The notes under the pieces: generated by a model
What the model was told of the DNA's origin: nothing
The model's database searches: none
Seen by the model: the letters and a program-made list of their open reading frames with translations, nothing else
Made by a program: the position numbers and the translations under genes
Assembly (NCBI RefSeq): GCF_004319545.1
Contig: NZ_CP036313.1
Span: 4,652,501-4,716,500, forward strand
Length of the DNA stretch: 64,000 nucleotides
Source of the DNA: Desulfobacter hydrogenophilus
Lineage (GTDB): Bacteria > Desulfobacterota > Desulfobacteria > Desulfobacterales > Desulfobacteraceae
Direction: 5' to 3'
Part shown: positions 46,925-52,579 of the stretch, piece by piece
Numbering within the stretch: position 1 is the first letter of the stretch
How the letters are laid out: the number at the start of each line of letters is the position of its first letter

Positions 46925-47047
46925 ATGAACGATCTCTTAAAAAAAAACGAATGCGCAGGGCCGAACGCGAAAGCCCTGGAAAAGTTAAGCCGCGCCAGGG
47001 CCTCAATGATACTGGACCACCCATTCTTTGCTTCACTGGCCTGGTAA
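46925..47047 (+). pseudogene. 5' fragment of VWA-like (DUF2201) gene, cut by transposon
   Basis: ATG at 46925 opens the partner of the MoxR-type ATPase: MNDLLKKNECAGPNAKALEK, then ARASMILDHPFFASLA. The host sequence ends at 47041; the transposon adds Trp and a TAA at 47045. The rest of the gene continues at 51395 in a compatible frame, so precise excision would give a 433-residue protein. Confidence 0.85.
47033..47041 (+). repeat. Target-site duplication, left copy
   Basis: TCACTGGCC, repeated exactly at 51386-51394 on the other side of the transposon. Both copies are in the host VWA gene, and the gene needs only one. Confidence 0.85.
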
Positions 47048-47102
47048 GATTCAAAAAGTGTAACGCGTACCCCGCAGTTTCATGACGAAATAATGTAACG
47101 GG
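47042..47102 (+). repeat. Transposon left end with two transposase-site copies
   Basis: TCAAAAAGTGTAACGC (47051-47066) and GAAATAATGTAACGGG (47087-47102) are two copies of one motif, matched by two inverted copies at the right end. Next to them, ATCCCGCC-like words recur (about 47108-47170: ATCCCGCC three times), which may be a further protein-binding tract. Confidence 0.8.
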
Positions 47103-47237
47103 CAGATATCCCGCCGCTATATCCCGCCAATCAAATAAAAAATCATACCCCGCCTATCCCGCCGATAGACCTCGCCGCTGCTTCTTTCAAAATTTGGTAC
47201 ATATAATCTCCCTGATTCAAATTTTGGAGAAGAAATA

Positions 47238-47615
47238 ATGGCAAAGAATTCACGTGGAAGACGACCTTGCTCTATTTGCCGGAAATGGTTCACCCCTGAT
47301 GTAAGACAAAAAGGGCGGCAGAAAACATGTCGTTCGGCTTGCCAAAAAGAGCTTCATCGAAGGCAATGTGAAAAGTGGAACAGGAAAAACAAAGCTGTTT
47401 GCAAAAACAATTATCTGGCAAAAAAACTTGAAGAAGCTGAGGAGCAACAAACATCTGGGAACCTTCCTTCGCTTTCATATCAAAAACAGACAAAACCTGT
47501 TTTGCCAATGGAAGTCATTATAGCAGAATACGGGATCAAGCCGGCAATTATCATTCAATATCTGGTTACCCAGGTTATCAGCCATAACAATGAAAAAATA
47601 CAGGGATTCCCATAA
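47238..47615 (+). CDS. Transposon zinc-ribbon protein
   Basis: 125 residues. The N-terminal ribbon is CSICRKWFTPDVRQKGRQKTC (Cys residues near 11, 14, 31 and 35), followed by a basic, helical stretch rich in Lys/Arg (KELHRRQCEKWNRKNK), fit for DNA binding. The C-terminal half has a hydrophobic helix (VIIAEYGIKPAIIIQYLVTQ). Similar small CxxCxxxF zinc proteins are linked to transposons in Desulfobacterota and Planctomycetes, as I recall. It is the first gene of the element and is separated from the others by a tandem-repeat tract; it may bind the ends or the repeats. Confidence 0.7.
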   Translation: MAKNSRGRRPCSICRKWFTPDVRQKGRQKTCRSACQKELHRRQCEKWNRKNKAVCKNNYLAKKLEEAEEQQTSGNLPSLSYQKQTKPVLPMEVIIAEYGIKPAIIIQYLVTQVISHNNEKIQGFP

Positions 47616-47634
47616 AAGACCCTCTGGCATAAAC

Positions 47635-47830
47635 GACTAATCGAGTATAGATTTTAAGATACATGATTGGAATAACTCATTGTAATATAAAGGGATATTA
47701 ACAGACTAATCGAGTTTTGATTCTAAGAGACATCATGAGGATAACCAACTGATAATACAAGTAGATATCAACAGAATAATCTCTATCTCAGTTTAAGAGG
47801 CAACTGACAGGCGACTCTAACCGGTGATAT
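47635..47830 (+). repeat. Degenerate 70-bp tandem repeat inside the transposon
   Basis: Three units starting GACTAATCGAG (47635), GACTAATCGAG (47704) and GAATAATCTCT (47774), a period of 69-70 bases. Units one and two agree along their whole length (ATT-TAAGA-ACAT, then ATAAC, TAATA-AA, GATAT-AACA); unit three is more diverged. It lies between the zinc-ribbon gene and the CHC2 gene, with no open frame. Confidence 0.75.
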
Positions 47831-47869
47831 AAAAAAGCACCTGAAATTTTAAAAATAAGGAGGTGTCTT

Positions 47870-48226
47870 GTGAAAAACAGATTTTCATCCCGGCAATTAT
47901 TTGAACTGAGAAACAATATCCCTGTAGATGTGTTGATCAGGGACCATTTACAGATTCTATCCAAGATTAGAGATGGTTATTTTCGTTTTCTATGCCCTTT
48001 GTGCAATGAATTTCAAACCGCTGTAAATCCAGCCACGAACCTGGCCAGGTGCTTCAGATGCGAAAAAAATTTTAATACCATTGACCTTGTCATGAAAATC
48101 AAGGGCTATGGATTTAGGGATAGTGTCTTGTTTTTGAAACAAATAAATACTGTACCCCAGGTTCAGGCCGCAAAATTGACGGCCCTTGCCGCTATGGTCG
48201 GCAGGCCTATGCCGGGAGGGCAGTGA
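47870..48226 (+). CDS. Solo CHC2 (DnaG-type) zinc-finger protein
   Basis: 118 residues from GTG 47870 with AAGGAGG seven bases upstream. It resembles the N-terminal zinc-binding domain of DnaG primase: helical NIPVDVLIRDHL, then RFLCPLCNEFQTAVNPATNL and ARCFRCEKNFNTIDLVMKIK (Cys pairs C-x2-C and C-x2-C), then the GYGFRDSVLFL helix. There is no TOPRIM or polymerase part. DnaG uses this finger to recognise template DNA. In the transposon it may recognise DNA during target choice or repair (inference). It overlaps the next gene. Confidence 0.7.
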   Translation: MKNRFSSRQLFELRNNIPVDVLIRDHLQILSKIRDGYFRFLCPLCNEFQTAVNPATNLARCFRCEKNFNTIDLVMKIKGYGFRDSVLFLKQINTVPQVQAAKLTALAAMVGRPMPGGQ

Positions 48227-48228
48227 GT

Positions 48229-48786
48229 ATGGAACGGCTGCTTGAGCTTGAAACCCTGATTGGTCGAAATCAAGAATGTTTTTACAAAATCGGCCAAGCC
48301 TTGAAAGAAATTCGTGAGAATCGTTTGTACAAGCAGGCTCTGTTTGAGTCATTTGAGGCATATACCAGGGCACGGTGGGATATGGGCAAAGCCCATGCTT
48401 ACCGGCTGATTCGAGCCTATGAAGTAATTTACAACCTGTCTCCAATTGGAGACAAACTGCCGGCCAACGAATCCCAGATCCGCCCCCTTACTCAAATGGA
48501 TTCCATAGAACAACGCCGTATCTGGAGGGCGATTATAAACAGTGGCATGGAACTGACCGCACGAAATATCAAAAAATTTATTGAGGACCAGAAAACGGCT
48601 CCGGTAAGTAAACCGGATCTGACAGATCGAATTACCCATGAATACATGGCTGTTGTAAAGGCAATGCTTGAACAGGTCCGTGTGGCTCAGCATGATCATT
48701 GGCAGAAGACCTCCCGCCAGGCAGCATTGTTGTGGCATCGGGTCATATACGAAAAGATTGTATCAAAGGGGGCAGATAATGGATGA
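48229..48786 (+). CDS. Transposon ParB/KorB-like helical protein
   Basis: 185 residues from ATG 48229, 8 bases after GGGAGG; GTG at 48223 is an alternative. It contains a helix-turn-helix-like core YTRARWDMGKAHAYRLIRAY (~43-62) followed by LSPIGDKLPANESQIRPLTQ and a helical EQRRIWRAII stretch. This pattern recurs in ParB/KorB-like plasmid and phage proteins, as I remember. A DNA-binding accessory role is likely. It overlaps the transposase gene by 8 bases. Confidence 0.6.
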   Translation: MERLLELETLIGRNQECFYKIGQALKEIRENRLYKQALFESFEAYTRARWDMGKAHAYRLIRAYEVIYNLSPIGDKLPANESQIRPLTQMDSIEQRRIWRAIINSGMELTARNIKKFIEDQKTAPVSKPDLTDRITHEYMAVVKAMLEQVRVAQHDHWQKTSRQAALLWHRVIYEKIVSKGADNG

Positions 48787-50446
48787 CCTGACTATTGATG
48801 ACCGCTTTCATTTACTGCTGCACAAAAAAATCATGAATAAAACCGGATCTACCAAGAGACGGTCCAAAAAATATTACAAGGACCAGTACAAGAAAACCGG
48901 AATTATCCCGGCGCCCCTTTTACTGGTTGAAAAAGGAATTATGGAAGGCCGTAAGTGCAGCGGACGGCCCAGAGCAATAGATGAGCAAACCAAAAGACGG
49001 TTTATTGAGATGGTCAAGGCGTCATGCGACCCCTCATCCCAGGGATTCATTTTTATCACCCGGAAAGCCAGAACCATTAAAAATTATCATCACTGGCTTG
49101 AACAAGAGCTGGGCAGAACCATCAGTCTTCCGGCACTTCGGCGATGTGTCAAAAGGGAAAATCTCAAATTTTACCTGGAAAAAGAGGATAAGCAGGATCA
49201 GGTCCCGGTAATGCATGCCTTCAAGTCGGTGCCGGTATTTGCTTTGATCCAGGTTGACGGCTGTAAATTTCAATATTTAAGGATCAGAGATGAACACGGT
49301 AACTGGCAAAAACCACAGGTAATTGAAATATTTGATACCGCTTCCAGGAAAATGTTTATTCTGGACTTTTATTTTACCGAAAGCAGCCTGAACTCTGTGG
49401 ATCTTTTTACCCGTTTTTTGTTGAGTACCCCTTTGCCTTTGCAAAAAATTGGTATCAGACCTGACCAGGCAAAAGGATTTTTAAATCTAAAACGCCCCAT
49501 CAATGCCATTAACCTGAAGCATTCTACACCGCAAGGCTTCTATTTGGCACCGGATTTTTCAAAGGCGTATTCACCCAAAGATAAGGCACATCTAGAATCT
49601 TCACACCGGAGCCTGCACAATTTTGAAATACGTATTATCAAAGCCTTTGAGGACAGGATTGTGAAAACCGTTACCGAATATGACTTCAAGCGGGGAAGAA
49701 AGGAAAAAATTACTGTAACCCTTCTTGATATAAGCCTTCAGGAACTAAGGAGCAGCACTATGCTCAGCGAATATCGTAACGAACATAATCATACACAACA
49801 TTATTTTACCGAAGACGGGGTGGTCAGTGCCTGGGTGCCGGCACAGAAATTTGATGATTTTTTATCAAACCAGGCAGATACCCTGAATTTTACCCCGGAC
49901 CAGGTTCAGGAATATATGAAATACGGCTACAGGAAAATCAAAGCCACCGTATCCAAAACCAGGACCATCCGCCATGACAAGCGCGATTATTATGTGACCC
50001 GTGGTGCAGATAAGTTCAGCAAACATAAAAGCACACCGGTGAAAATATCCAAATACAAGGACAAGCTTTTTATTTTTGAGCAGGGTGAAGACGGTATACT
50101 GTTGGGCGAAGCCATTGCAAAAAAGCCGTTTGACAGACCGCCGGCACCAGAACCTTCGCCTGTGCCGCCTGATGAACTTGACACCATTATCGCTCTTTTA
50201 GAAAAGCACAATATGGCCGTTGACCGGCCTGTTTTAGTCGACGTTTTTCATAAGGGCCTCACCCTGGCCCGGGCGGAACAAGTGCTTGATCATAATCAAT
50301 CAAGGTACGCGGATTACACAAAAAAGATAAACCAGCCGGATGACCGTAAAAATCAGGCCCTGTTCAATGCATTTATGCTTGATTGCCAAAAATCGTTAAA
50401 TACGAACCATGTAGCCATTTATGCATCCCATGGAGACATAACATGA
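48779..50446 (+). CDS. DDE transposase (retroviral-integrase fold)
   Basis: 555 residues from ATG 48779 (AAAGGGGGC upstream; the longer frame overlaps the previous gene deeply). N-terminal DNA-binding helical part (~1-150), catalytic core with D160 in IQVDGCKF, D229 in IRPDQAKGF and E273 in KAHLESSHRSL. The spacings (69, 43) fit the rve/Mu A-type core. A beta-barrel and C-terminal region follow, ending with a helical stretch (LDTIIALLEKHNMAVD) that may touch the ATPase. It would cut the TG/CA ends and join them to target DNA. Stop overlaps the ATPase start. Confidence 0.85.
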   Translation: MDDLTIDDRFHLLLHKKIMNKTGSTKRRSKKYYKDQYKKTGIIPAPLLLVEKGIMEGRKCSGRPRAIDEQTKRRFIEMVKASCDPSSQGFIFITRKARTIKNYHHWLEQELGRTISLPALRRCVKRENLKFYLEKEDKQDQVPVMHAFKSVPVFALIQVDGCKFQYLRIRDEHGNWQKPQVIEIFDTASRKMFILDFYFTESSLNSVDLFTRFLLSTPLPLQKIGIRPDQAKGFLNLKRPINAINLKHSTPQGFYLAPDFSKAYSPKDKAHLESSHRSLHNFEIRIIKAFEDRIVKTVTEYDFKRGRKEKITVTLLDISLQELRSSTMLSEYRNEHNHTQHYFTEDGVVSAWVPAQKFDDFLSNQADTLNFTPDQVQEYMKYGYRKIKATVSKTRTIRHDKRDYYVTRGADKFSKHKSTPVKISKYKDKLFIFEQGEDGILLGEAIAKKPFDRPPAPEPSPVPPDELDTIIALLEKHNMAVDRPVLVDVFHKGLTLARAEQVLDHNQSRYADYTKKINQPDDRKNQALFNAFMLDCQKSLNTNHVAIYASHGDIT

Positions 50447-51105
50447 AAGAGGATTTTATCAGTGATAAACGAAGGGTCTCATACTTGGCTGCCACTTATA
50501 ACCGGATCTACAGAGGCCAAAGCGTGCTCATGGAGGGTGATTTTGGTGCAGGAAAAACTCGGTTTTTAAAATTGCTGCATCCCAAAAAGCTCCATGCTGT
50601 ATGGGTTGAGTCTCTGTTCAACATACATGAAACCCTGGCCGCGATACTTAAGGAATTAAATTATGAGGCCACCGCCACCTACCGCCGAACTCCCCAGTAC
50701 CTGAAAATGATCTGTAATCTCTCCAATTGTTTTATCATTATAGATGAGGCCAATGACTTGGACACCCGGGTTTGGCCATATCTTAAACGGATTATTGATG
50801 CCGGGGTTCCCATCGTATTTGCAGGACTTCCGAATGTGAGAACTTATTTGAGCCGGAACCATCCTGATATACTCAGCCGGTTGAAAACCCTGATTTTGTA
50901 TCCCATAGAGGTCGAGGACTTCATTGAAAAATACAAAGATATCCAGCAGGAAGCCGTTGAACAGATTTATATGTCCGTTAAGGGCGATATGCGCAAATTT
51001 AAAGAAATCTGTACAGACTGCCGGGACAGGGCAAAGGAGTTAAACCACCAATTTGTTGATATTAATCTTGCCCTGGAATTTATATCAGATCTCCCTCCTC
51101 AATAA
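50443..51105 (+). CDS. MuB/TnsC/TniB-type AAA ATPase
   Basis: 220 residues from ATG 50443, which overlaps the transposase stop (ATGA). Walker A GDFGAGKTRF (~32-41), Walker B NCFIIIDEAND (~95-105), a sensor region IVFAGLPNVRTYL and an Arg-finger candidate DILSRLKTL. Such ATPases bind target DNA, activate the DDE transposase and give target immunity. It lacks the long C-terminal extension of TnsC. Last gene of the element; about 150 bases of non-coding DNA follow before the right-end sites. Confidence 0.85.
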   Translation: MKEDFISDKRRVSYLAATYNRIYRGQSVLMEGDFGAGKTRFLKLLHPKKLHAVWVESLFNIHETLAAILKELNYEATATYRRTPQYLKMICNLSNCFIIIDEANDLDTRVWPYLKRIIDAGVPIVFAGLPNVRTYLSRNHPDILSRLKTLILYPIEVEDFIEKYKDIQQEAVEQIYMSVKGDMRKFKEICTDCRDRAKELNHQFVDINLALEFISDLPPQ

Positions 51106-51258
51106 TCCTTACCACAACTTATCTGCATTAACAGGCCATCCTTGGTATAATCCGAGGTTGGCCTGCCTGTATTTTATCCTCATATGTTTTGACGCCGATT
51201 TCTGTTTGATTCATTTTTGAAAAACGCCAAACCACAGATCATTATTGAATTTTTCTTA

Positions 51259-51385
51259 CGCCGTTACATTATTTTGTAACTCTGCTTTTATTGGTGTTTC
51301 GCTACAACAAGTTTAAATCAAAAACAAATTTGACATTTTTGTTAGAATCTTAAATCCATAATACCGTTACATTATTTGAATCTCA
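51259..51385 (-). repeat. Transposon right end with two inverted transposase-site copies
   Basis: CGCCGTTACATTATTTTG (51259-51276) and TACCGTTACATTATTTGA (51362-51379) are the inverse of the left-end motif AAATAATGTAACGG. The last bases GAATCTCA mirror the left TGxxAAGATTC. The inner copy is ~110 bases from the end against ~45 at the left, so the ends are asymmetric. Confidence 0.8.
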
Positions 51386-51394
51386 TCACTGGCC
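51386..51394 (+). repeat. Target-site duplication, right copy
   Basis: TCACTGGCC, identical to 47033-47041. Confidence 0.85.
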
Positions 51395-52579
51395 CTGCGC
51401 CTGAAATTTAAAGAAGATACAAACTGCGCCACAGCCTGGACCGACGGTAAAACTTTTGGCTACAACCCCAATTATATAAATATTCTCCCCCGGGAAAAAC
51501 TGGTGGGACTGACGGCCCATACCGTGATGCATCCGGCCTGCGCACATCACCTGCGCCGGGGAGACCGGAATGCAGACACCTGGAACAGTGCCTGTGACTA
51601 CGCCATCAACCCGATTCTCCTCGAAGCCGGCCTCATCCTGCCGGACGGGTTTCTCTATGACCCAATTCTTGAGGGCAAATCCGCCGAGCAGGTTTACACG
51701 CAACTGACACAGGGAGATGCCGACGAAAGCCACGAGGAAAAAAAATCTGACGAAAGCCAAACCACCCCGTCCCCGGCGGAAAGCCATGAGCAAAACCAGG
51801 AAGATCAAAAAGAAGACTGGAATCAAATAGAAACCGCAAAGCCATCCGAACCGGACACCCCTGAACCGGATAACCCGGATCACGGCCCTGCCGGAGAGGT
51901 CCGTGATGGAGACACAGCCCCGTCCCCGGGCGGCACAGAAGAAACTGAAACCGACTGGGAACAGGCCCTGGTCCAGGCCGCTGCCACCGCCCGGATCATG
52001 GGTCAATTGCCCAAAGGGGTGGATATCTTTATCAAAGAACGGTTCAGTCCGTCTTTACCCTGGACCGACCTTCTGGCCCGGTTCATTCAGCAGTCCGCCC
52101 GCAGTGATTACACTTGGTCCCAGCCCAACCGCCGGTACATCCACCAGGATATTTACTTCCCGGCCCTGGTCTCGGACCAGTTGCCGGAAATGGCCGTTGC
52201 AGTGGATACGTCAGGAAGTATCCGGCCCGAAGAACTGGAACGTTTCAGTGCGGAGCTTTCGGCCATTCTTTCCATGAATCCTGCCAGAGTCCATATCCTG
52301 TTCAACGATCTTACCGTCAGCCGTTACGAAACGGTTTGCCCCTGGGACCTGCCCTTTGACTTCACTCCGAAAGGGGGCGGCGGTACCGATTTCAGGCCGG
52401 TATTCCAATTTATTGATGAAAACCAGATCACCCCTTTCTGCCTGATCTTTTTTTCAGACATGGAATGCCGGCTCTTTCCTGCCCAGGCACCAGACTACCC
52501 GGTCCTCTGGATCAGGACCGGACAGGGAGATGACCCTGCCCCCTTTGGAGACATGATTAATTTAATAAGCGAGAAATAA
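51395..52579 (+). pseudogene. 3' fragment of VWA-like (DUF2201) gene
   Basis: Continues the gene begun at 46925: LRLKFKEDTNCATAWTDG, then a putative metallopeptidase-like domain LVGLTAHTVMHPACAHHLRR. I would expect HExxH there; here it reads HTVMH. A long Glu/Asp/Pro linker (~130-200 of the fragment) leads to a VWA domain with the metal site AVAVDTSGS and FFSDMECR. A shorter product could start at GTG 51503. The MoxR-VWA pair usually acts together, so the transposon probably disables the unit. Confidence 0.8.

Follow-up and report, generated by a model that had tools for sequence, protein, structure and literature searches.

AAA-regulated transposases, such as those of phage Mu, Tn7, IS21 and the CRISPR-associated transposons (CASTs), are models for target choice, and few types of selector are known. 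Phage Mu terminates in TG...CA, has an operator/enhancer region in its interior and makes a 5-bp target duplication; Tn7-like transposons likewise make a 5-bp duplication. The part of PMC10122671 that deals with IS21 describes two repeats at each end and a DDE transposase paired with an AAA+ protein. We analyzed a 64,000-nucleotide stretch of Desulfobacter hydrogenophilus (contig NZ_CP036313.1 of assembly GCF_004319545.1, positions 4,652,501 to 4,716,500, forward strand), called here the window and numbered from its first letter. It contains a transposon of 4347 bp that interrupts a host gene and is predicted to encode a transposase and an ATPase of the same general kind. The kind of machine is known; judged by Pfam, NCBIfam, PHROGs and the open papers searched, the family itself has no name.

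Boundaries, copies and interrupted gene

47042..51388, plus strand: whole transposon with TG...CA ends, 4347 bp; same sequence in 10 of 11 host-genome copies, the eleventh carrying an insert
47036..47041, no strand: target duplication CTGGCC, left copy, 6 bp, from flank comparison of copies
51389..51394, no strand: target duplication CTGGCC, right copy, 6 bp, from flank comparison of copies

The transposon, whose hosts are sulfate-reducing bacteria, is real and recently active. The host genome (G000, 5.16 Mb in three contigs) encodes 11 copies of the transposase that are 100% identical, and paired element ends were found at 11 places together with one solitary left end. Ten of these copies are identical across all 4347 bases. 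An exact 6-bp duplication, which would arise by chance about once in 4096 per copy, flanks 10 of the 11; the exception, L018, lies between AAACAT and AACGAT. A preliminary description of the locus had set the boundaries at 47042..51385 with a 9-bp duplication. Its left boundary stands, whereas the right end, ...GAATCTCATCA, is common to all 11 host copies and therefore places the end of the element at 51388. The TCA counted into the 9-bp repeat is part of the element, so the duplication is 6 bp, CTGGCC.

46925..47041, plus strand: 5' piece of the host gene (DUF2201/VWA), 39 codons, from the joined frame and relatives
51395..52579, plus strand: 3' piece of the host gene (DUF2201/VWA), from the joined frame and relatives

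Excision of 47042-51388 with one 6-bp copy joins 46925-47041 to 51395-52579 in an uninterrupted 433-codon frame, with the break after codon 39. This is the same joined gene that the 9-bp version had yielded, and it confirms the restored frame reported earlier. The joined VWA gene was matched in 8 of 21 genomes searched, host counted in. An uninterrupted homolog in G295 is 72% identical over residues 1-433, and in each of G291, G293, G252 and G292 a single unbroken match starts at residue 15 or 16 and runs to about 430. The match in G296 falls into two pieces, one of which (16-176) spans the break, and that in G298 begins only at residue 116. Judged by these alignments, the congeners have the VWA gene uninterrupted and their copies match the joined gene, in line with the preliminary description.

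One host copy, L019 (C1, 4.08 Mb), has 1547 bp of extra DNA within the ATPase gene, corresponding to window position 50790, so that the ATPase is broken in one of the 11 copies. This insert has near-inverted ends and an open reading frame (ORF) resembling, by eye, an IS4-type transposase. The solitary left end (L033, C1:296288-296310 of the host genome; L285 1289-1311) has 23 identical bases, and another sequence resembling the site follows some 37 bases further on; no matching right end was found within 13 kb. It adjoins a resolvase-like gene and a 1025-amino-acid (aa) protein resembling a Tn3-type transposase, both labels being given by eye.

Proteins of the element and their kinship

47238..47615, plus strand: ORF A, 125 aa, CxxC...CxxxC zinc-finger-like, no Pfam family; C11, C14, C31 and C35 invariant in 9/9 aligned
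47635..47843, plus strand: three direct repeats, period 69-70 bp, unit GACTAATCg-N10-TTTAAGAGgCAT...; candidate operator or enhancer
47870..48226, plus strand: ORF B, 118 aa, CHC2/DnaG-type zinc finger; PF01807 E 1.1e-7; CPLC...CFRC
48223..48786, plus strand: ORF C, 187 aa, helical; 606 homologs at E 0.001, 120 listed
48779..50446, plus strand: DDE transposase, 555 aa, D160/D229/E273; PHROG 310 E 5.6e-8; folds TnsB, retroviral integrase, MuA, IstA
50443..51105, plus strand: AAA ATPase, 220 aa, MuB/TnsC-like; AAA_22 E 1e-6; PHROG 296 E 4.1e-12; hhalign to MuB and TnsC

The five ORFs stand in the order given earlier, with the ATGA overlap joining the transposase and ATPase genes; B, C, transposase and ATPase all overlap in series. 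The catalytic residues D160, D229 and E273, proposed from the sequence, are invariant in 14/14 aligned relatives, and the CHC2 assignment of ORF B agrees with its Pfam match. By profile and predicted fold, the transposase appears to be a remote relative of MuA, TniA and TnsB. TnsB was its top Foldseek match, with TnsB rows ahead of IstA, and PHROG 310 also detects TniA. Retroviral integrase cores scored about as high, so that the fold matches do not point to one particular branch; the Mu/Tn7 logic proposed in the preliminary description holds at the level of profiles and predicted folds. Direct profile comparison of the transposase gave no significant match to MuA, no match to TniA and nothing to R721 TnsB. 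The ATPase, which aligned with R721 TnsC in hhalign and reached only E 0.083 against TniB, is MuB/TnsC-like on its profile matches.

None of the five proteins matched TnsA, TniQ/TnsD, TnsE or a resolvase in Pfam and NCBIfam (sequence profiles only), the NCBIfam IS21 model at E up to 1, or any phage structural family. A phage or plasmid origin was rejected, the transposase having no match in plasmids, phages or viral contigs. No description of the family was found in Pfam, NCBIfam, PHROGs or open-access papers, and within that scope, which leaves ISfinder outside, the earlier wording 'apparently undescribed' can be kept. The missing NCBIfam match is weak evidence because phage Mu A and R751 TniB go unnamed in NCBIfam too.

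Comparison with Mu, Tn7, Tn5053/Tn402 and IS21

The element resembles Mu in combining a DDE transposase with an AAA ATPase without a recognised TnsA, and PHROGs 310 and 296 cover both proteins, so that homologs of MuA and MuB are present, if remote. Its TG...CA ends and the position of its repeat array also recall the ends and internal operator/enhancer of Mu. It differs from Mu in its duplication (6 bp versus 5 bp), in the lack of phage structural matches among its five proteins and of a significant direct MuA match, and in having a zinc-finger protein, a CHC2 protein and ORF C as accessories.

The likeness to Tn7 and CASTs lies in TnsB as best Foldseek match and in the alignment of the ATPase with R721 TnsC. 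These likenesses, remote and at the level of profile and fold, are shared with MuA, IstA and integrases. Unlike Tn7, the element has no TnsA, TniQ/TnsD or TnsE match by sequence profile; type V-K relatives are likewise without TnsA. It has two main sites per end where Tn7 has longer arrays, the window copy carries no cargo, and its duplication is 6 bp in 34/48 copies and 5 bp in one, compared with 5 bp for Tn7. Its accessory genes, which can be exchanged, are reminiscent of the modular target selectors described in PMC10293859. With Tn5053/Tn402 it shares the PHROG that finds TniA, but it differs in having no TniQ or TniR resolvase match, no direct TniA match and the marginal TniB value given above.

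Two repeats per end, a DDE and AAA pair and IstA among the fold matches are likenesses to IS21, and the element might be a divergent IS21-family member that acquired three extra genes. We consider this very unlikely. The NCBIfam IS21 model, which the element fails to match, does match a remote relative from the same order, L198 (E 1.1e-13, below cut-off); TnsB outranks IstA in Foldseek; and the transposase is paired with ORF C in 33/34 elements examined. In IS21, istA and istB stand alone between the ends; the window element has three further ORFs upstream, conserved in relatives, and uninterrupted elements measure 4.1-4.8 kb. The IstA fold match may reflect a remote kinship.

End sites

47042..47065, plus strand: left terminal inverted repeat, holding end site L1 at 47054-47065; arms 83% complementary
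47089..47100, plus strand: end site L2, 35 bp inside L1; spacing same in relatives
51262..51273, minus strand: end site R2, 103 bp inside R1; spacing similar in relatives
51365..51388, minus strand: right terminal inverted repeat, holding end site R1 at 51365-51376

The TG...CA termini, the imperfect terminal repeats and the single end site in four copies, two per end and inverted, were all described previously and are visible in the sequence. End motifs were sought in 53 loci, among which a single element sometimes appears twice with different names; many lacked one end or both, often where a contig breaks off. Both ends could be placed at 17 loci, which come from 13 hosts. With two mismatches allowed, the left sites of these loci have offsets of 13 and 48 (45 in G280) and the right sites of 13 and 113-117. 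Short direct repeats, TATCCCGCCG, occur just within the left end (window 47107-47176), and runs of CCCCGC or CCCGCC lie near the left-end sites in several relatives.

Target duplications and target preference

The gene order, end motif and duplications, the last at 6 bp, recur in several independent insertions and genomes, as the preliminary description had anticipated. We tabulated 53 copies from six genomes with few contigs (host 11, G010 3, G280 11, G293 3, G679 14, G692 11). An exact 6-bp duplication was present in 34 of the 48 copies with both flanks readable: 10/11 in the host, 2/3 in G010, 4/10 in G280, 3/3 in G293, 5/10 in G679 and 10/11 in G692. The third G010 copy has a 5-bp duplication. 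Outside the tabulation are a G679 copy cut by a contig end, single copies in G678, G681 and others, and L250, the twelfth copy in G692 and a member of a different subfamily, which also has a 6-bp duplication. Among eight more loci with both flanks from outside the six genomes, only L080 had a duplication; the majority are short contigs from metagenomes in which copies are perhaps merged, and L088 is a decayed copy on a complete chromosome.

Some copies without a duplication bear signs of rearrangement. The hexamers of L233 and L234, two copies that point in opposite directions, are swapped reciprocally, and L075 and L164 have a hexamer in common. Two further pairs share a left flank: L077 and L167 (G280) have 330 identical bases before the element and different right flanks, and L225 and L228 (G679) share at least 20 bases, the right flank of L225 being unread. 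Such pairs are perhaps recombination duplications or one-sided events.

Most of the duplicated hexamers have a pyrimidine-purine step at their centre, often CG. A central CG occurs in 15/34 versus 1.6 on average in random hexamers, and a central pyrimidine-purine step in 24/34 versus 7.8. No draw out of 10,000 reached either observed count; control hexamers for G010 and G293 were taken from other genomes of the set. No tRNA target was found at ten host-copy loci (L012-L021).

Accessory genes, repeat array and exchange of modules

Two features go beyond the preliminary description, namely the three conserved 69-70-bp repeats tied to ORF A and the exchange of modules upstream of the core. The array lies between ORF A and ORF B. 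In a first count it was present in 22/22 elements with ORF A and 0/13 without, five of the 13 having fewer than 700 bases upstream. A second set comprised 34 elements, of which 33 have ORF C; here the array was present in 24/24 with ORF A and 0/9 without, and 8/9 of those without ORF A have more than 1.2 kb upstream. The second set gains L226, L239 and L250 and loses the partial loci L049, L081, L090, L115 and L120; among these, L115 carried the array as well as ORF A. Since the elements share descent, the association could be mostly one gain in one clade. L095 and L103 are placed within the ORF A clade of the transposase tree (FastTree) and are without ORF A, array and ORF B all at once, and this joint absence links the three more tightly.

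In L095 and L103, the place of ORF A, the array and the CHC2 protein is taken by A', a different zinc-finger-like protein, and by a second protein that matches HTH_36 weakly (E 0.025 in L103, which is complete end to end on one contig). In L076, the G280 element, and in L084, A' is followed by a CHC2 protein. L058 has a helix-turn-helix protein ahead of ORF C, where its contig begins, and L085, L086, L087 and L113 have a CHC2 protein without A or A' by BLAST. The core is thus C-transposase-ATPase, and the genes ahead of it appear to be exchanged as modules. The four cysteines of ORF B are invariant in 10/10 aligned. For ORF C, model and fold searches gave no conclusive match; some of its homologs, among the matches listed, bear the precomputed Pfam label PF01672.

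Three other explanations of the array region were tried. A structured RNA was rejected (0 consensus pairs in 15 sequences, nothing above the gathering score in Rfam). A CRISPR was rejected as well, the two likest units being 79% identical over 47 bases and the alignment, judged by eye, having no constant repeat with variable spacers. A promoter ahead of ORF B, suggested by eye from TGATATAAA and CTGACA below the third repeat, was dropped when a scan listed neither and gave no clear excess.

A section of PMC10293859 describes N-terminal domains of the Tn7 protein TnsE that resemble the primosome protein PriB and a proposed role of TnsE in fork targeting. By analogy, a primase-derived CHC2 protein could bring the ATPase to lagging-strand DNA, as proposed for TnsE. 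Apart from this parallel and the PF01807 match of ORF B, the idea is favoured by the location of 7/11 host copies inside 882 kb (C1 3.8-4.7 Mb, 17% of the chromosome) including the GC-skew terminus region, with p 0.026 for an arc picked after the data were seen. Given the TnsE proposal, we compared the orientation of CHC2 elements with fork movement. Co-directional copies numbered 3/11 in G000, 9/11 in G280 and 5/11 in G692, so that there is no consistent orientation in the three genomes and fixed-orientation targeting of the TnsE kind is unsupported. Origins and termini were placed by GC skew alone in 20-kb samples, without dnaA; G679 was excluded for a skew without a clean single switch, and the G280 count is the least sure because its skew arms are unequal. 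Moreover, no CHC2 gene was detected in L095 and L103. Fork targeting is in our judgement distinctly improbable.

A broader proposal is that this is a new family of the TnsB/TnsC kind in which a plug-in slot by ORF C (mostly CHC2, otherwise helix-turn-helix) governs target choice or timing, with a switch made of ORF A and the three repeats ahead of the operon. As a whole we regard it as rather doubtful; if the plug-in slot were real, it would represent a kind of target selector that has no relation to TniQ, TnsE, TnsF or Cas effectors. In any case the family is compact and recently active, combines a TnsB/TnsC-like core with exchangeable accessories, has no recognised TniQ and offers a small natural test system: the swap of CHC2 for helix-turn-helix on a closely related core asks what sets target choice, and the ORF A-linked array offers a handle on copy-number control.

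Proposed mechanism of transposition

The element is probably an autonomous transposon of the Mu/Tn7/IS21 class that works along the following lines. By comparison with MuA/MuB, TnsB/TnsC and IstA/IstB, a multimer of the DDE transposase would bind L1/L2 and R1/R2 and pair the ends, which would then be joined to the two strands of the target at positions staggered by 6 bp. The ATPase would assemble on target DNA and recruit and activate the transposase, like MuB, TnsC and IstB. ORF A may bind the three-repeat array upstream of the operon and regulate it, in the manner of the Mu operator/enhancer region, and ORF C may serve jointly with the CHC2 or helix-turn-helix protein in target choice or control. 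The outcome would be replicative, a copy-and-paste reaction of the cointegrate type, with host recombination later separating or rearranging the copies.

This last step is the least certain. Replicative transposition seems likelier than cut-and-paste because neither a TnsA-like second-strand nuclease nor a resolvase was recognised. In a cut-and-paste reaction both strands would be cut by the transposase, either unaided or helped by a nuclease of the host or the element, and no cointegrate would form. The clean, exact duplications of most tabulated copies (34/48) fit such a reaction, as does a weak match of ORF A to an HNH endonuclease PHROG profile (E 0.0014). That match, however, is limited to residues 7-61, and another protein replaces ORF A in some elements; with the TnsA family unmatched in the five proteins, cut-and-paste appears somewhat unlikely, and replicative transposition is preferred.

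Distribution of the family

Transposase homologs numbered 694 at E 0.001 or better out of 7994 scored candidates, with 120 listed. In the order of the host, 22/291 genomes and 17/138 genera had a match, host counted in, and in a phylum set of 395 genomes three were matched, all from that same order and one of them (G061) weakly. When named genomes were scanned, 35 loci came up. The majority bear Desulfobacterota labels from the Desulfobacter group; three are labelled Desulfobulbaceae, Desulforhopalus and Desulfobulbus, and two are metagenome bins labelled Neomarinimicrobiota and Methanosarcinaceae, which may be binning errors. The closest named relative of the transposase among the matches listed is in a Desulfobacter postgatei bin (94%). 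Many homolog contigs are about the size of the element and probably represent a collapsed multi-copy repeat.

The weak locus in G061, L198, matched the family profile at three places (E 2.2e-5), with ORFs at 901-2181 and 85-891 on the minus strand. Its transposase matched the NCBIfam IS481 model as well as IS21, both below cut-off, and a 268-aa ORF there resembles an AAA ATPase by eye.

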